Assembly (NCBI GenBank): GCA_001803635.1
Contig: MHDU01000028.1
Coordinates: 1 to 56,939, forward strand
Direction: 5' to 3'
Source: Nitrospirae bacterium GWB2_47_37
GTDB lineage: Bacteria > Nitrospirota > Thermodesulfovibrionia > Thermodesulfovibrionales > Dissulfurispiraceae
Length of the DNA stretch: 56,939 bases
Positions 38,348 through 49,962 of the stretch are shown piece after piece (positions within the stretch are counted from its first letter, which is position 1; every line of letters begins with the position of its first letter). The notes beneath the pieces were generated by a model that was given only the letters and a program-made list of their open reading frames with translations, had not been told where the DNA came from and searched no databases. The position numbers and the translations under genes are program-made.

Positions 38348-38689
38348 TCACAACCATATATATCTGTCTTTTAAATCAGTTGCAGGAATGTTATCCAAAA
38401 AGACCGTAACACGTCTCAGTATCTCTTTAAAATCCAATTGAGGGGTCACCACTATTCCGTAATGCGTAATATTTTTTTCATAACACATTCTTGCGAGATT
38501 GGTAAAATGAGAGACGTTGCAAGTTAAGAGAGCCCTTTGATTTTTGATTGCATAATAAAGCTGGTCTTCGTCGGAACGGCCTTCCATCTTTATTTCATGA
38601 GCGCTTACGGCATCATAGCCCATTGTCCGTAAAACCCTTGCGAGCAGGTCTGTTATGTCCTCGTCAAGATATAACTTTGCTTTCTCCAC
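38348..38689 (-). CDS. DUF5615 PIN-like toxin component
   Basis: A 113-residue protein: YLDEDITDLLARVLRTMGYDAVSAHEI carries the acidic DED cluster of PIN-like DUF5615 proteins. Then come GRSDEDQLYYAIKNQRALLTCNVSHF (second acidic cluster; asparagine where D-x-D is frequent) and a short C-terminal helix. Such proteins pair with DUF433 antitoxin-like genes and are predicted RNases. It starts with GTG, overlapping the upstream DUF433 gene by 37 bases. Confidence 0.85.
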   Translation of the reverse strand: MEKAKLYLDEDITDLLARVLRTMGYDAVSAHEIKMEGRSDEDQLYYAIKNQRALLTCNVSHFTNLARMCYEKNITHYGIVVTPQLDFKEILRRVTVFLDNIPATDLKDRYIWL

Positions 38690-38964
38690 CCCTCGCCCTC
38701 GGTAAGCTTCAATTGTGATTCCTTTGTGCCCTCGGCTATTAACCTGTCAATTTCATCTTTATGGTCATAGTAGTATGAAAGAACATCATATACCATCGCA
38801 TGAGTTATATTCGGATACATGGCAACTATTTCATCAACCTCTTTGCCCATCTTTATCCAGTTAATGATCGTCTTAACAGGGATTCTTGTGCCTGCCACTA
38901 CAGGCTCGCCGCCGCACACATCCTTTAGGGACTCAATATATGCATGAGCCTTGCAACTCGTTAT
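38653..38964 (-). CDS. DUF433 antitoxin-like protein
   Basis: About 103 residues with the DUF433 winged-helix signature: VCGGEPVVAGTRIPVKTIINW, then GKEVDEIVAMYPNITHAMVYDVLSYYYDHKDEID. The start at 38964 was chosen because GGAGGTGA lies 4 bases upstream; an in-frame extension to 39000 is unlikely to be translated. The long overlap with the DUF5615 gene indicates tight coupling. It is the probable DNA-binding antitoxin of the pair. Confidence 0.87.
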   Translation of the reverse strand: MTSCKAHAYIESLKDVCGGEPVVAGTRIPVKTIINWIKMGKEVDEIVAMYPNITHAMVYDVLSYYYDHKDEIDRLIAEGTKESQLKLTEGEGWRKQSYILTRT

Positions 38965-39128
38965 CATCGATTCACCTCCGCGCTCCCTAAATAATCTCAA
39001 TAAAATTATAGCATAAAAAATGGGTGACGGGATTTAAAACTATCGGCTTGCCGCGGGGGATTCGACAAGTTGAATCATCATTTTTTTCGCTCAAATGTCT
39101 ATAAATAAGCCTGACACTCGTTTTTTCT

Positions 39129-39353
39129 TTAGCGTTGCGGATCGCTCAACGAGCAATCTGGGTTTCGCTCCAAGTGCTCAAAATGTCCCTCAGCATGGCC
39201 ACCGGCGCGGTGAGGACGGACAGGACTATTACATTCAGTGCACCTCCAATCTGGATCAGATTTTCCAGTCGATCGTGCAGCATTCCTGTCCCGGATCGCA
39301 TCATCAATTAACACGATTCTCCTACCCACAAGACACTTTACGGCTCTTGGCAT
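39129..39353 (-). CDS. Small zinc-ribbon protein with HFEHLERNPDC motif
   Basis: About 74 residues. After a basic N-terminus (MPRAVKCLVGRRIVLIDDAI) it has DWRCTECNSPVRPHRAGG then GHFEHLERNPDCSLSDPQR, a C-x2-C ... H/C zinc-binding layout resembling a minimal version of the CoiA-type zinc-ribbon start. I recall similar small proteins near mobile DNA but know no function. The ATG at 39353 has GAGG 5 bases upstream. It lies immediately beyond the attC-like site at 39387-39443, as a gene in the next integron cassette would. Confidence 0.65.
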   Translation of the reverse strand: MPRAVKCLVGRRIVLIDDAIRDRNAARSTGKSDPDWRCTECNSPVRPHRAGGHAEGHFEHLERNPDCSLSDPQR

Positions 39354-39386: not shown

Positions 39387-39443
39387 CCCCAACGTGCCTG
39401 CGAATGAGGTGCCCTGCGGGACGGCTCGATCCGCTTGTTGGCC
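39387..39443 (-). mobile_element. attC-like recombination site 1
   Basis: Read on the reverse strand it starts GGCCAAC AAGCGGATCGAG and ends CATTCGCAGGCAC GTTGGGG, giving complementary ends (CCAAC/GTTGG) like integron core sites. Inner arms GCGGATCGAG and CTCATTCGC pair except for an extra base and a mismatch, and the tip is GTCCC-GCA-GGGCAC. It is 82 percent identical (47 of 57) to the site at 42132-42188 without gaps. It lies 21 bases after the PRTase gene stop. Confidence 0.6.
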
Positions 39444-39464
39444 GTCGCCGCTGCATCTTTTCCA

Positions 39465-40325
39465 TCATTCAAATCTTTCTATCAGTGGTTTCCAAGCCTC
39501 ATTACCATTGCATTTACCATCCGACCAAAAAAGGGGCAGTGTATTGTTGGGCACATTATAATAGAACGCCACTAGAGCCTGACAACCTTCCCAACCCAAA
39601 GCATCTTGATCGGGAGTGTACTGTTCTTTACCCATCAAAACTTCATGGCCAATTCGTTTCGCCCACTCTGCTGCCGCATTTGCTTCTTCACTTGTCGACC
39701 AGATTGGATTGTTCGGGGAAAATGCCCGGTCACTCTCTTCAAAAATTTGTGCAGCAATCACTTTTGTAACTTTTCCTTTTAATGCTTTCTCCACTTTCTC
39801 AATACCAGTTCTAAATGCGACCATAACACCAAGGTAAACATCAACATTATTTAACCAATCATAGTTACTAAAGTAATTATTGATATATTTTACAGCTTGT
39901 GAACCACCACCGACAATATCATCCAAGAATACAATGATACTTGGTTTTTCGTATTGACTCGTCTCGTTGAATTCTGCTATATCAGGAAAAATCTTCGCCT
40001 CTCTTTCACTATATAATGACTCGTACTCAGGAAGCCGGCTGATTCCCTGCCGGAATGGGTATGGATTATGCCGGCCGCTCTTAGCTCCATGACCCAAACC
40101 GATGAATACCGCATCTCGCTTTACTGGAAGAGGCAACTGCTTAAAAACCGATGCCCATAGACTTCGTACATCTTCCTCATCATAAATTTTCAAGGCAGAA
40201 AGTAGTCGACATGCCAAGAGGCGTTCGCCCTCAGGGAATTGCAGAATCCAATCGTGAAACCTTGCTGCGGACACTTTCCCGCATCCTAAAAGATTATCAA
40301 CGAAAATAGAAATCCAGCGAGGCAA
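39465..40325 (-). CDS. PRTase-like protein (predicted conflict-system phosphoribosyltransferase)
   Basis: A 286-residue protein with a phosphoribosyltransferase core: the PRPP loop is IIVFLDDIVGGGSQAVKYI (hydrophobic stretch, DD, then glycine-rich turn) near residues 130-148, preceded by a strand containing VFIGLGHGAKSG. This resembles PRTase domains described in predicted prokaryotic conflict systems rather than nucleotide salvage enzymes; that is recalled, not searched. The only start in frame is TTG at 40325, with a poor ribosome-binding site. Upstream, 20 further codons are open (ARKGERYRIRQEQFYESN) back to the TGA of the preceding gene, in the same frame. It ends just before attC-like site 1. 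Confidence 0.65.
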   Translation of the reverse strand: MPRWISIFVDNLLGCGKVSAARFHDWILQFPEGERLLACRLLSALKIYDEEDVRSLWASVFKQLPLPVKRDAVFIGLGHGAKSGRHNPYPFRQGISRLPEYESLYSEREAKIFPDIAEFNETSQYEKPSIIVFLDDIVGGGSQAVKYINNYFSNYDWLNNVDVYLGVMVAFRTGIEKVEKALKGKVTKVIAAQIFEESDRAFSPNNPIWSTSEEANAAAEWAKRIGHEVLMGKEQYTPDQDALGWEGCQALVAFYYNVPNNTLPLFWSDGKCNGNEAWKPLIERFE

Positions 40326-40385
40326 ATTGCTTTCATAAAATTGTTCTTGACGGATGCGGTAGCGCTCTCCTTTGCGAGCATTCCA

Positions 40386-42137
40386 TCAAGGTCGTAAATA
40401 GTAATAGCTGCCAATGTTTAAACGTTGTAGCCCTTCGAACTCAATCGTATTGGGGATCTCTCGCCAGAGTCGCCGCGCGCGCGTAATATATGTGAATAAC
40501 TCTGGAGCATCTTCATTCATATATACATGGTGTGGCAAATTTGACTGCTCATTTACAACGATTACATGGGGCCAGAACCGTATCGCATCAAAAAATGATC
40601 TTTGAGCATCTATTGCAGCTGGAAACTCACCATTATCAATTGCAGCGTGAAAGCGGTCGAAATCTTCCTCCGCATGCGCGAAGGTCATTGCGTGAGCCTC
40701 CGAACGTATCCGTAGATAATACATTACAATTTTATAAAGTTTCTTACATGACATATTTTCTGTGTACTTTAAGGGGTTCGTCATCGTGTGTTTAGCGTCA
40801 TCGGCAGGAGGGTCTAAATAGCGGAGGTATTCGTAATCTGCCATTAACAAAAGCATATGTCTCAAATTCTGAACAAGTAAACCCCGCCAATCGTGTTTGT
40901 AGGGGTCAATGTCATTAAGAATATCAATTAACGACGAATAACTTACCTTTCGCTCTAAACTGGCCTCCTGATCCTCTTCTGGTAATACAGCATCCAGAAC
41001 AAAGAGCTTCCACTCTTTGGCAAAATTATTTACCTCCTCCTTGAGCGTCTCCCCAGTGAATACGCTCCGCGTAGATTTAGTCTTAATAGAGAGTTCCTTT
41101 AACCATTCCAATCGCCGCCAAAGCGCCCAAGTTGTTTTGGCTGTGTATCGGCGTTTTAGAAGCTGCTCCAGCTTCCTCCAATCATGTGGTTGAAGATTAT
41201 TGACTGGGATACGTGAGAGGATGTCACATATCGCAACAAATATCGCGATATTCTCAGTACGAAGACTTGGTTTCCCGTCAGTATTAGCGTCCAGCCAAGT
41301 ACTGAATTTGGATTTTGCACCAAGGAAATCACTCAATGATACACGCTCCACCCCATCGATATAATATTCATGCGCAGCTATCTCAGCACGACTTCTAAAA
41401 TAGTTTGGGAACATCCTTATTTTCGGTATCCGAGAAGTCTCAAGCGCCTGTGCGAATGCTTTACGAGATTCTTCAAATTGCCCCTTTAACAGGTAGACGT
41501 AACCCTTGGTTATTTGTAACCAGTAGTCTAAATAAGCTTGATGCTGAACGTGTGGCTTACTACTATTGAGTTTGAGGGCAGAACGGTGAATCTTGCTTGC
41601 CAACTCTCGTTTTGCTAATGTGTCATCATAGTTGAACACTTGAGCAGCATGACCTGCTTCACACTTTAAAGCGTCAGCAAGGGCTTTGAGTCGTATGAAA
41701 CACATCTTTGATTGGCGGGGTGATAAGAGTGCTGTTTGAGATAAGCAGGAGCTACCGTCATCTGCAGGCGGGCAAGGCTGTTTCATGCAAATGGATGGTA
41801 TACTGAGGTTGGCCAGCTCGCGAAATAAGTCCTGTTGTGTGCGCCCTCTTATTCTTTCTGCTTCAATCCTCAGATTTACTTTACGGGCCTCCAAAATACT
41901 CAAGCGATCAGACAGCTCGTCAAATTCATCAGAATTCTCTCTAATTAATTCACTTATTTCGTCAAGCGTCTTACGCGCCTCTGCGAATTGGCCTGTCTTT
42001 TTCAGGCTATTGAATTTAGCCTCGCTCTTGTGATAGAGATTTCGAGCTTTTGAGTGCTCAGATTTGTACACGCTTTCCACCTTCCTACTGCAAGCAATAA
42101 TAGCACGAGTCATCTTCTTTGTTCTTAAGTTAGCCAA
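40386..42137 (-). CDS. Large helical (TPR-like) protein partnered with PRTase
   Basis: 583 residues, no catalytic motif recognised. The N-terminal 115 residues form a probable coiled coil (KSEHSKARNLYHKSEAKFNS, FAEARKTLDEISELIREN). The middle has a TPR-like pair, GYVYLLKGQFEESRKAFAQA followed by FRSRAEIAAHEYYIDGVERV, and the rest is helix-rich. A cysteine-containing stretch (ICMKQPCPPADDGSSC) lies near residue 115. The first codon TTG (42137) lies inside attC-like site 2; the ATG at 42113 (codon 9) is an alternative. It precedes the PRTase gene by 60 bases in the same frame. Codon and base use differ from the hydrogenase genes next door. It may be the sensor or target-recognition subunit; that is inference. 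Confidence 0.7.
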   Translation of the reverse strand: MANLRTKKMTRAIIACSRKVESVYKSEHSKARNLYHKSEAKFNSLKKTGQFAEARKTLDEISELIRENSDEFDELSDRLSILEARKVNLRIEAERIRGRTQQDLFRELANLSIPSICMKQPCPPADDGSSCLSQTALLSPRQSKMCFIRLKALADALKCEAGHAAQVFNYDDTLAKRELASKIHRSALKLNSSKPHVQHQAYLDYWLQITKGYVYLLKGQFEESRKAFAQALETSRIPKIRMFPNYFRSRAEIAAHEYYIDGVERVSLSDFLGAKSKFSTWLDANTDGKPSLRTENIAIFVAICDILSRIPVNNLQPHDWRKLEQLLKRRYTAKTTWALWRRLEWLKELSIKTKSTRSVFTGETLKEEVNNFAKEWKLFVLDAVLPEEDQEASLERKVSYSSLIDILNDIDPYKHDWRGLLVQNLRHMLLLMADYEYLRYLDPPADDAKHTMTNPLKYTENMSCKKLYKIVMYYLRIRSEAHAMTFAHAEEDFDRFHAAIDNGEFPAAIDAQRSFFDAIRFWPHVIVVNEQSNLPHHVYMNEDAPELFTYITRARRLWREIPNTIEFEGLQRLNIGSYYYLRP

Positions 42138-42188
42138 CGTGCCTTCGTATGCGCTGCCCTGCGGGACAGCTCGATCTGCTTGCTCGCC
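42132..42188 (-). mobile_element. attC-like recombination site 2
   Basis: 57 bases aligned without gaps to site 1. On the reverse strand it ends GGCAC GTTGGCT, the core-site end, and the hairpin tip is GCTGTCCCGCAGGGCAGC, which pairs with one extra A/T base as in folded attC sites. The far-end inverse core is degenerate (GGCGAGC). It lies directly at the start of the 583-residue gene. Confidence 0.55.
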
Positions 42189-48979: not shown

Positions 48980-49042
48980 ATGCCAAGTTGGTATATTATT
49001 GGTATATTATATGTTGAACATGACAAGAGGAGGCTTACATGA
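48980..49042 (+). CDS. Possible 20-residue leader ORF before the truncated ATPase
   Basis: ATG at 48980 with AAAAGGAGAAA directly upstream opens a 20-codon frame (MPSWYIIGILYVEHDKRRLT) whose TGA overlaps the ATG of the next gene (ATGA). It includes a tandem TTGGTATATTA repeat. It may couple translation of the downstream gene or be chance. Confidence 0.3.
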   Translation: MPSWYIIGILYVEHDKRRLT

Positions 49043-49269
49043 ACGTACGTAACGGAGTAGATTTTACGGATGAAAATATACAAAAGCTATTTGGTTTTGA
49101 AGATGCCGAAAGTGAACCAATAAGTCGTTTAAAGGAATATTATTTAAAAAGAGAGACGTATGATAGAGTTCTTGCCGACTTACCAATTAGAGTATTAGTT
49201 GGTCATAAAGGGACTGGTAAATCTGCCTTATTTAAGGTTGCAATATCTGAAGAAAGAGAGAACCCTTAG
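49039..49269 (+). pseudogene. N-terminal fragment of a P-loop ATPase
   Basis: 76 residues: NGVDFTDENIQKLFGFEDAE, a short helical region, then the strand-loop LPIRVLVGHKGTGKSALFKVAI containing a complete Walker A motif at about residues 54-62. All later ATPase motifs (Walker B, sensors) are missing: the frame ends at a TAG inside an attC-like hairpin. The intact protein would be several hundred residues. AGAGGAGG precedes the ATG. The truncation point coinciding with a recombination-site remnant suggests loss through cassette rearrangement. Confidence 0.7.
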
Positions 49270-49297
49270 CGGGAACCCGCTTAACTTCGTGTTAGGC
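49266..49297 (+). mobile_element. Partial attC-like site (3' half) at the ATPase truncation
   Basis: TTAGCGGG, AA, CCCGCTTAA forms a stem with one extra T, followed by CTTCGT and a perfect core site GTTAGGC at 49291-49297. The matching inverse-core arm expected upstream is absent, so only half the site survives. Gene-then-attC orientation is as in integron cassettes. Confidence 0.45.
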
Positions 49298-49309
49298 CTA
49301 AAATTAATA

Positions 49310-49338
49310 TTGACAAAAGGCAGACAATGTCGTAAATA
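49310..49338 (+). promoter_or_regulatory. Promoter of the BrnT/CopG-like TA pair
   Basis: Perfect TTGACA at 49310-49315, 17-base spacer, TAAATA at 49333-49338. The toxin ATG at 49345 starts 6 bases later without a Shine-Dalgarno, so the transcript is probably leaderless. Confidence 0.55.
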
Positions 49339-49344
49339 TATATT

Positions 49345-49623
49345 ATGAAGGTTTTCCGGTGGGATAATGAGAAGAATGAATTGTTGAAGAAAAACAGAGG
49401 AGTCAGTTTTGAACAGGTTGTTATCTTGATGGAAAGGGGAGATGTTCTCGAAACAATTGAACACCCAAATCAAGATAAATATCCTGGGCAGAAAATTGCA
49501 ACGGTCAAGATTGGTGATTATGCTTATCTCGTTCCTTATGTACAGGAAAGTGAGGATATATTCTTAAAAACAATTATCCCCAGCAGAAAAGCTACAAATA
49601 AATATGTGAGGGAACAAAAATGA
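49345..49623 (+). CDS. BrnT-like toxin
   Basis: 92 residues with the BrnT-type layout: VFRWDNEKNELLKKNRGVSFEQVVILMERGDVLE, then IATVKIGDYAYLVPYV and the C-terminal LKTIIPSRKATNKYVREQ. BrnT-like proteins have a RelE-like fold and cleave RNA. Its stop overlaps the start of the antitoxin (ATGA). The pair lies just after an attC core site, as TA pairs often do in integron arrays. Confidence 0.8.
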   Translation: MKVFRWDNEKNELLKKNRGVSFEQVVILMERGDVLETIEHPNQDKYPGQKIATVKIGDYAYLVPYVQESEDIFLKTIIPSRKATNKYVREQK

Positions 49624-49904
49624 AAAAGACAGTTTTAGATGCTGAAGAAAAAGATATTTTAGAGTCATACGAGCGTGGCGAATGGAGACCTGTTAAGAAT
49701 CCAAAACACGAAATAAGAAGACTCCGTGAATATGCGAGGAATACACTGCAAAAAGACAAAAGAATAAATATTCGGATGTCGTCAAAGGATTTGGATCAGG
49801 TTCAAGTGATTGCTGCGCAAGAGGGAATTCCTTATCAGACACTAATATCCAGTGTTATTCATAAATATGTCTCGGGATATTTATTAGAAAAAAAGAGGGC
49901 TTAA
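49620..49904 (+). CDS. CopG/ribbon-helix-helix antitoxin
   Basis: 94 residues. An N-terminal ESYERGEWRPVKNPKHEIRRLREYARNTL region is followed by a ribbon-helix-helix: INIRMSSKDLDQVQVIAAQEGIPYQTLISSVIHKYVSG. This is a common antitoxin type that pairs with BrnT-like toxins. It probably represses the promoter at 49310. A strong hairpin lies 11 bases after its stop. Confidence 0.85.
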   Translation: MKKTVLDAEEKDILESYERGEWRPVKNPKHEIRRLREYARNTLQKDKRINIRMSSKDLDQVQVIAAQEGIPYQTLISSVIHKYVSGYLLEKKRA

Positions 49905-49914
49905 CAATTCAATC

Positions 49915-49941
49915 CACGGGACGGGAGATAACCCGCCCGTG
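49915..49941. terminator. Hairpin between the TA pair and the DtxR-type gene
   Basis: CACGGG, bulged A, CGGG, loop AGATAA, CCCG, CCCGTG: 10 base pairs, all but two of them G-C. It lies between convergent genes and can end both; no clear T tract on either side. Confidence 0.5.
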
Positions 49942-49962
49942 ATCTAGGCCGTTGCGGCGGCG

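Follow-up and report, generated by a model that had tools for sequence, protein, structure and literature searches.

Probable conflict-system contexts of PRTase-CE proteins

Phosphoribosyltransferases (PRTases) of the PRTase-CE family (PF24390) recur as likely effectors in retrons, DS-32 systems, ORC/CDC6 operons, HD fusions and ParB contexts. In type III-A retrons the PRTase is accompanied by a winged-helix protein and a reverse transcriptase (RT), in DS-32 (PRTase, NF053875; anti-phage by its NCBI name) by a NADAR protein (NF053876), and in PRTase-CE/ORC-CDC6-like operons by an ORC/CDC6-like ATPase (PF24389) and a third gene of ~315 aa. A DprA-PRTase anti-phage system was reported by Rousset et al. 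(PMC9122126), who state that how retron PRTases act is unknown, and we found no known reaction for PRTase-CE proteins. Defence cassettes within integrons are credited to Darracq 2025, Kieffer 2025 and Getz 2025 by the papers that cite them (PMC12444791, PMC13092281), and both CALINs (cassettes without an integrase nearby) and insertion into genomes through attG have been described (PMC12444791).

The window analysed here is one complete contig of 56,939 nucleotides from Nitrospirae bacterium GWB2_47_37. It contains an effector of a known class in a vehicle of a known type, joined to a partner not seen before, and this cassette is probably a mobile phage-defence unit. The features of the locus are as follows.

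38348-39000, minus strand: DUF433 and DUF5615 (PIN-like) genes, a likely toxin-antitoxin pair lying close downstream of the cassettes, with a strong Shine-Dalgarno sequence
39129-39353, minus strand: small ORF with weak similarity to the DUF7830/CoiA N-terminal zinc ribbon, directly after site A, with a good Shine-Dalgarno sequence
39387-39443, minus strand: site A, downstream attC-like site (R'' GGCCAAC, AAGCGG, L'' ATCGAG ... L' CTCAT, R' GTTGGGG)
39465-40325, minus strand: phosphoribosyltransferase of the PRTase-CE family (PF24390), 286 aa from TTG, candidate effector (Pfam, PADLOC, AF2 and PDB matches)
39897-39932, minus strand: PRPP-loop motif VFLDDIVGGGSQ, with D135, D136 and G141 unchanged throughout 35 PRTase-CE proteins
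40326-40388, minus strand: TGA followed by 20 codons without a stop (WNARKGERYRIRQEQFYESN), in the frame of both ORFs; may mark an interrupted fusion
40386-42137, minus strand: helical protein, 583 aa from TTG (575 aa from the ATG at 42113), candidate sensor/regulator, weak TPR match, no relatives
42132-42188, minus strand: site B, upstream attC-like site (degenerate R'' GGCGAGC, L'' ATCGAG, R' GTTGGCT)

The PRTases of the ORC/CDC6 operons belong to the same family as the window PRTase (22-30% identity) and share with it the DD motif and a C-terminal N-x-P-x-x-T-L-P-x-x-W, but the window protein lacks part of the 60-110 region. At the window locus the ATPase and the third gene are missing and the helical orphan, which has no PF24389 match, stands in their place, with the gene order reversed so that the partner lies upstream. 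The window PRTase also matches the PADLOC models for retron III-A PRTases (PRTase_III-A, E 6.6e-35), but no RT ORF or winged-helix gene occurs among its neighbours in the window, and neither a retron ncRNA nor any other Rfam match was found at 37-45 kb. With DS-32 it shares the PRTase domain (NF053875, E 6.1e-8), but at 32.2 bits against a cut-off of 250 and without a NADAR partner. The HD and ParB partners of other relatives are likewise missing from the window locus. The likeness to the integron defence cassettes lies in defence-type gene(s) bounded by attC; as far as the citing papers tell, effector class and partner differ, although PRTase cargo there is possible, and the window cassette is located away from any integrase and has a putative defence role.

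An integron gene cassette outside its integron

The unit between sites A and B measures exactly 2745 bp. The initial annotation had drawn attention to two bounding 57-bp sites of 82% identity and to two minus-strand ORFs between them; the sites indeed agree at 47 of 57 positions, and both ORFs lie where described, tightly bounded by them. A 20-mer core common to both sites occurs twice in the window, compared with 0.04 occurrences expected, and twice in no shuffle, while no further copies of the full sites were found anywhere in the genome. The layout of site A matches that of attC sites from annotated plasmid integron arrays (e.g. GCCTAAC-CCTTCC-ATCGAG...CTCAT...GTTAGAC). Scored with an in-house position matrix derived from 12 sites (plasmid arrays and candidates beside integron integrases of relatives), site A took second rank: of all the positions in the window, on either strand, only one outscored it, a site at 49899 that closes a BrnT/BrnA-like cassette. 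The score of site B itself was weak (rank 244 in the window), and its attC status is based on its identity to site A. No direct neighbours of the attC sites were detected in plasmids or in 148 genomes of the phylum.

In an integron cassette, the R' box comes from the site upstream and the R'' box from the cassette's own attC. Site B gives TTGGCT to the cassette. In place, the R boxes of site A pair at 5/7 positions; when the unit is circularised, R'' of site A meets R' of site B and the two pair at 7/7 (six Watson-Crick and one wobble), and this joined site forms a hairpin whose R stem is complete. The BrnT/A cassette shows the same rise, from 4+1 in place to 6+1 joined. Plain folding of the DNA of the sites was no better than that of shuffles, which is expected because extrahelical bases are involved; what did discriminate was R-box pairing after circularisation. 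With an attC of complementary R''/R' boxes after the gene and bounds at G|TT, the unit can be regarded with high confidence as an integron gene cassette, and the packaging suggested at the outset is well supported by the in-house attC score, the pairing of the circularised R boxes and an integrase encoded in the same genome.

This integron integrase, which scores 370 bits with TIGR02249 (cut-off 265), is encoded at the start of another contig (C32:185-1123), and integron integrases were present in 20/80 relatives. The cassette is 39 kb and about 15 kb from the ends of its contig and therefore lies outside the array adjoining the integrase. With regard to the CALIN criteria (at least two attC, no integrase nearby), there are two homologous sites, of which B is weak alone, an integrase on a different contig and flanks of more than 14 kb, so that the cassette may be a CALIN-like remnant or an off-array insertion. 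The small ORF directly after site A is possibly a second cassette whose own attC has decayed or was not found.

Codon use sets the pair apart from the host, as had been noticed. Under host usage, the TPR ORF has a mean log-likelihood per codon of -1.351 and the PRTase ORF one of -1.352, whereas 26 host ORFs (250 aa or longer) average -1.108 +/- 0.046 (lowest -1.252), which places both about 5 SD off host usage and to an equal degree; GC3 is 0.43 and 0.36, respectively, against 0.56 in the host. Hydrogenase/hypC genes lie directly upstream on the same strand. Between hypC and the cassette no good promoter or terminator signal was found, and the cassette could plausibly be transcribed by polymerase reading through from the hydrogenase genes.

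The PRTase-CE protein

The 286-aa protein matches PF24390 over positions 2-253 of 253 (E 2.4e-42, 146 bits against a cut-off of 27). An AF2 model built from 35 sequences reached a mean pLDDT of 89.5, and its top Foldseek matches were to uracil phosphoribosyltransferase (UPRT, E 4e-4); in VIA-align (Z 9-11) all of the matches listed were PRTase-fold proteins. The top structural matches from both programs include uracil and orotate phosphoribosyltransferases, PyrR and HGPRT, and the best Foldseek match among viral structures was a phage PRTase-CE protein. The motif VFLDDIVGGGS, read as a PRPP loop in the initial annotation, lies at 39900-39932 on the minus strand, and its residues D135, D136 and G141 are invariant in 35/35 PRTase-CE proteins. 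From the model, the protein almost certainly adopts the type I PRTase fold, with its acidic pair intact. A motif lying outside a PRTase fold had been named in advance as the outcome that would tell against the proposal; the confident fold, the matches to PRTases and the invariant DD place the motif within one. Matches to PF24390 in 25 genomes of the phylum were weak and below the cut-off, and were ignored.

The helical partner and the reading frame

Helices make up most of the 583-aa protein; two long ones lie at the N-terminus, and residues 210-235 give a weak TPR match. Its TTG start is the TTG within the R' box of site B (GTTGGCT). The structure prediction proposed for both proteins succeeded for the PRTase but not for this one, whose AF2 model (pLDDT 39) has no usable fold. 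No relatives were found in plasmids or viral contigs, in PDB, PHROGs, NCBIfam or PADLOC, in 296 genomes of the phylum and 31 of the family, among the ORFs of the PRTase loci compared, or, in a search for close relatives only, in 84,980 GTDB species genomes. The pair is therefore known from one locus. We call the helical protein a candidate sensor because of its TPR-like character and the modular contexts of the PRTase.

The unit had been described as two genes, and two ORFs are present, but the number of genes is uncertain since the only stop between them, in a reading frame that they share, is one TGA (40388-40386). They may represent a single TPR-PRTase fusion gene of ~890 aa interrupted by this TGA through a nonsense mutation or an assembly error, in which case the locus would hold a single-protein system in a copy that is decaying or was misread. 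The 20 intervening codons are open, and the PRTase ORF contains no ATG, its only start being a TTG whose Shine-Dalgarno energy of -0.1 kcal/mol amounts to none (host neighbours mostly have -6 to -14); lacking both, and following an in-frame TGA, the unit may be broken. Moreover, the alignment of the extended frame to an HMM built on 34 PRTase-CE proteins starts at residue 19, a little ahead of the TTG, and two proteins of 906 and 616 aa (at loci L066 and L146) provide precedents for a C-terminal PRTase-CE domain. However, a shared frame with no stop across 20 codons is expected by chance at about 0.12, so the arrangement is only suggestive of a fusion; the commonest relatives are encoded by separate genes, and the helical part has no homologue that could reveal an intact form. 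On balance we rate an interrupted fusion as possible but somewhat improbable.

Relatives of the PRTase

Among related loci on GTDB contigs, an ORC/CDC6-like ATPase gene lies directly downstream of the PRTase gene in 43/46, a share that overstates this partner because the scan was seeded partly with ORC-type proteins, and nearly all of the 43 then carry the third gene. A DNA methylase is often encoded near these operons, as is ThyX in rhizobial plasmids. A retron III-A context (winged-helix gene and RT) was found at three loci (L072, L143 and L144), and a DS-32 PRTase member above cut-off occurs at L036 in a genome of the same phylum (G143). In the PRTase tree, which has many long branches, the window PRTase falls outside the main ORC clade; this placement does not extend to a position beside its nearest kin. 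The neighbourhood survey suggested initially had a divided result: the family adjoins proven defence modules (retron III-A, DS-32, DNA-methyltransferase operons), whereas co-occurrence of the pair was not found.

Several other arrangements were observed in the course of this survey. The complete PRTase-CE/ORC-CDC6/third-gene operon is present on five IMG/VR contigs (L148-L152), so the system is also found in putative viral or prophage sequence. The 906-aa protein of Sphingobium xanthum (L066:4880-7600) fuses an HD-domain phosphohydrolase to PRTase-CE and is a candidate single-protein conflict system. A PRTase-CE gene directly follows a ParB_N gene in two different phyla (L039:6045-8807 and L081:5952-7669), the gene after it at L039 being possibly DNA adenine methylase-like. 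At L036:9735-14551 the DS-32-type PRTase precedes a fusion of a NADAR domain with a DUF1156 anti-phage-associated protein.

Proposed function and alternatives

In the explanation that we prefer, PRTase-CE is the effector of the unit and the helical, TPR-like protein its regulator. The helical protein would sense an infection cue and hold or release the PRTase, directly or as a fusion. The active PRTase, with PRPP or a ribosylated nucleotide or base as its substrate, would then deplete nucleotides or nucleic acid or modify them, halting phage growth or the infected cell. A defence reading is suggested because the family occurs in retron III-A, DS-32, ORC/CDC6 plus DNA methylase and DprA-PRTase contexts, and on these grounds we consider a defence role fairly probable. 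That regulator and effector work together in the manner outlined seems marginally probable. Tentatively, and rating it somewhat short of probable, we also put forward that the locus is an immune system not described before: PRTase-CE would be under the control of a helical/TPR regulator, whether separate from it or fused to it, and the whole would move between genomes as an integron cassette. If true, this would mean that a modular effector which handles nucleotides has yet another kind of partner. Being compact, with a single partner and natural attC boundaries, such a version would be easy to clone and assay, and the cassette extends integron cargo to the PRTase-CE effector class in a little-studied phylum.

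A cassette without any defence function, carrying a nucleotide-salvage or regulatory PRTase and an unrelated helical protein, is unlikely. The resemblance of the fold to UPRT, OPRT and PyrR would agree with it, as would dcd and pyrF (pyrimidine metabolism) at 1-2.5 kb downstream; however, these two are host genes outside the cassette, the codon use of the cassette departs from that of the host, and the PRTase-CE relatives adjoin retron RTs, NADAR, ORC/CDC6, methylases and ParB, salvage enzymes being absent beside them except for ThyX/dUTPase near some operons.

We think it equally improbable that the cassette is a stabilising toxin-antitoxin-like module with the PRTase as toxin and the helical protein as antitoxin. 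Toxin-antitoxin modules are common integron cassettes, the window itself holds a BrnT/A-like one, and DS-32 pairs a PRTase with NADAR, a de-ribosylating enzyme family; but the putative antitoxin would be far larger than its toxin, and the scheme fails if the two parts are fused. Decoding of the TGA as selenocysteine or by read-through, yielding free helical protein plus a helical-PRTase fusion, is very improbable: the common frame, SelB encoded in the genome and a stem enclosing the TGA (z -1.8) would accord with it, but the stem is only marginally unusual (9/200 shuffles are as good), its loop is ~10 nt from the TGA, nearer than in bacterial SECIS elements, there is no Cys homologue, and specific support is lacking.

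A second cassette in the window

The BrnT/BrnA-like integron cassette occupies 49280-49957 on the plus strand, 7.7 kb from the PRTase cassette, with the following features.

49279-49297, plus strand: short attC remnant GCTTAAC-TTCGT-GTTAGGC at the upstream edge
49345-49623, plus strand: BrnT-like toxin
49620-49904, plus strand: BrnA/CopG-like antitoxin
49899 onward, plus strand: best attC of the window, closing the cassette

Immediately before it, 49039-49269 (plus strand) encodes a 76-aa N-terminal fragment of a Sll1717-family P-loop ATPase (E 5.6e-12), with weak similarity to DS41 anti-phage and ORC-CDC6-like proteins, a truncated defence-type gene that ends where the BrnT/A cassette starts.
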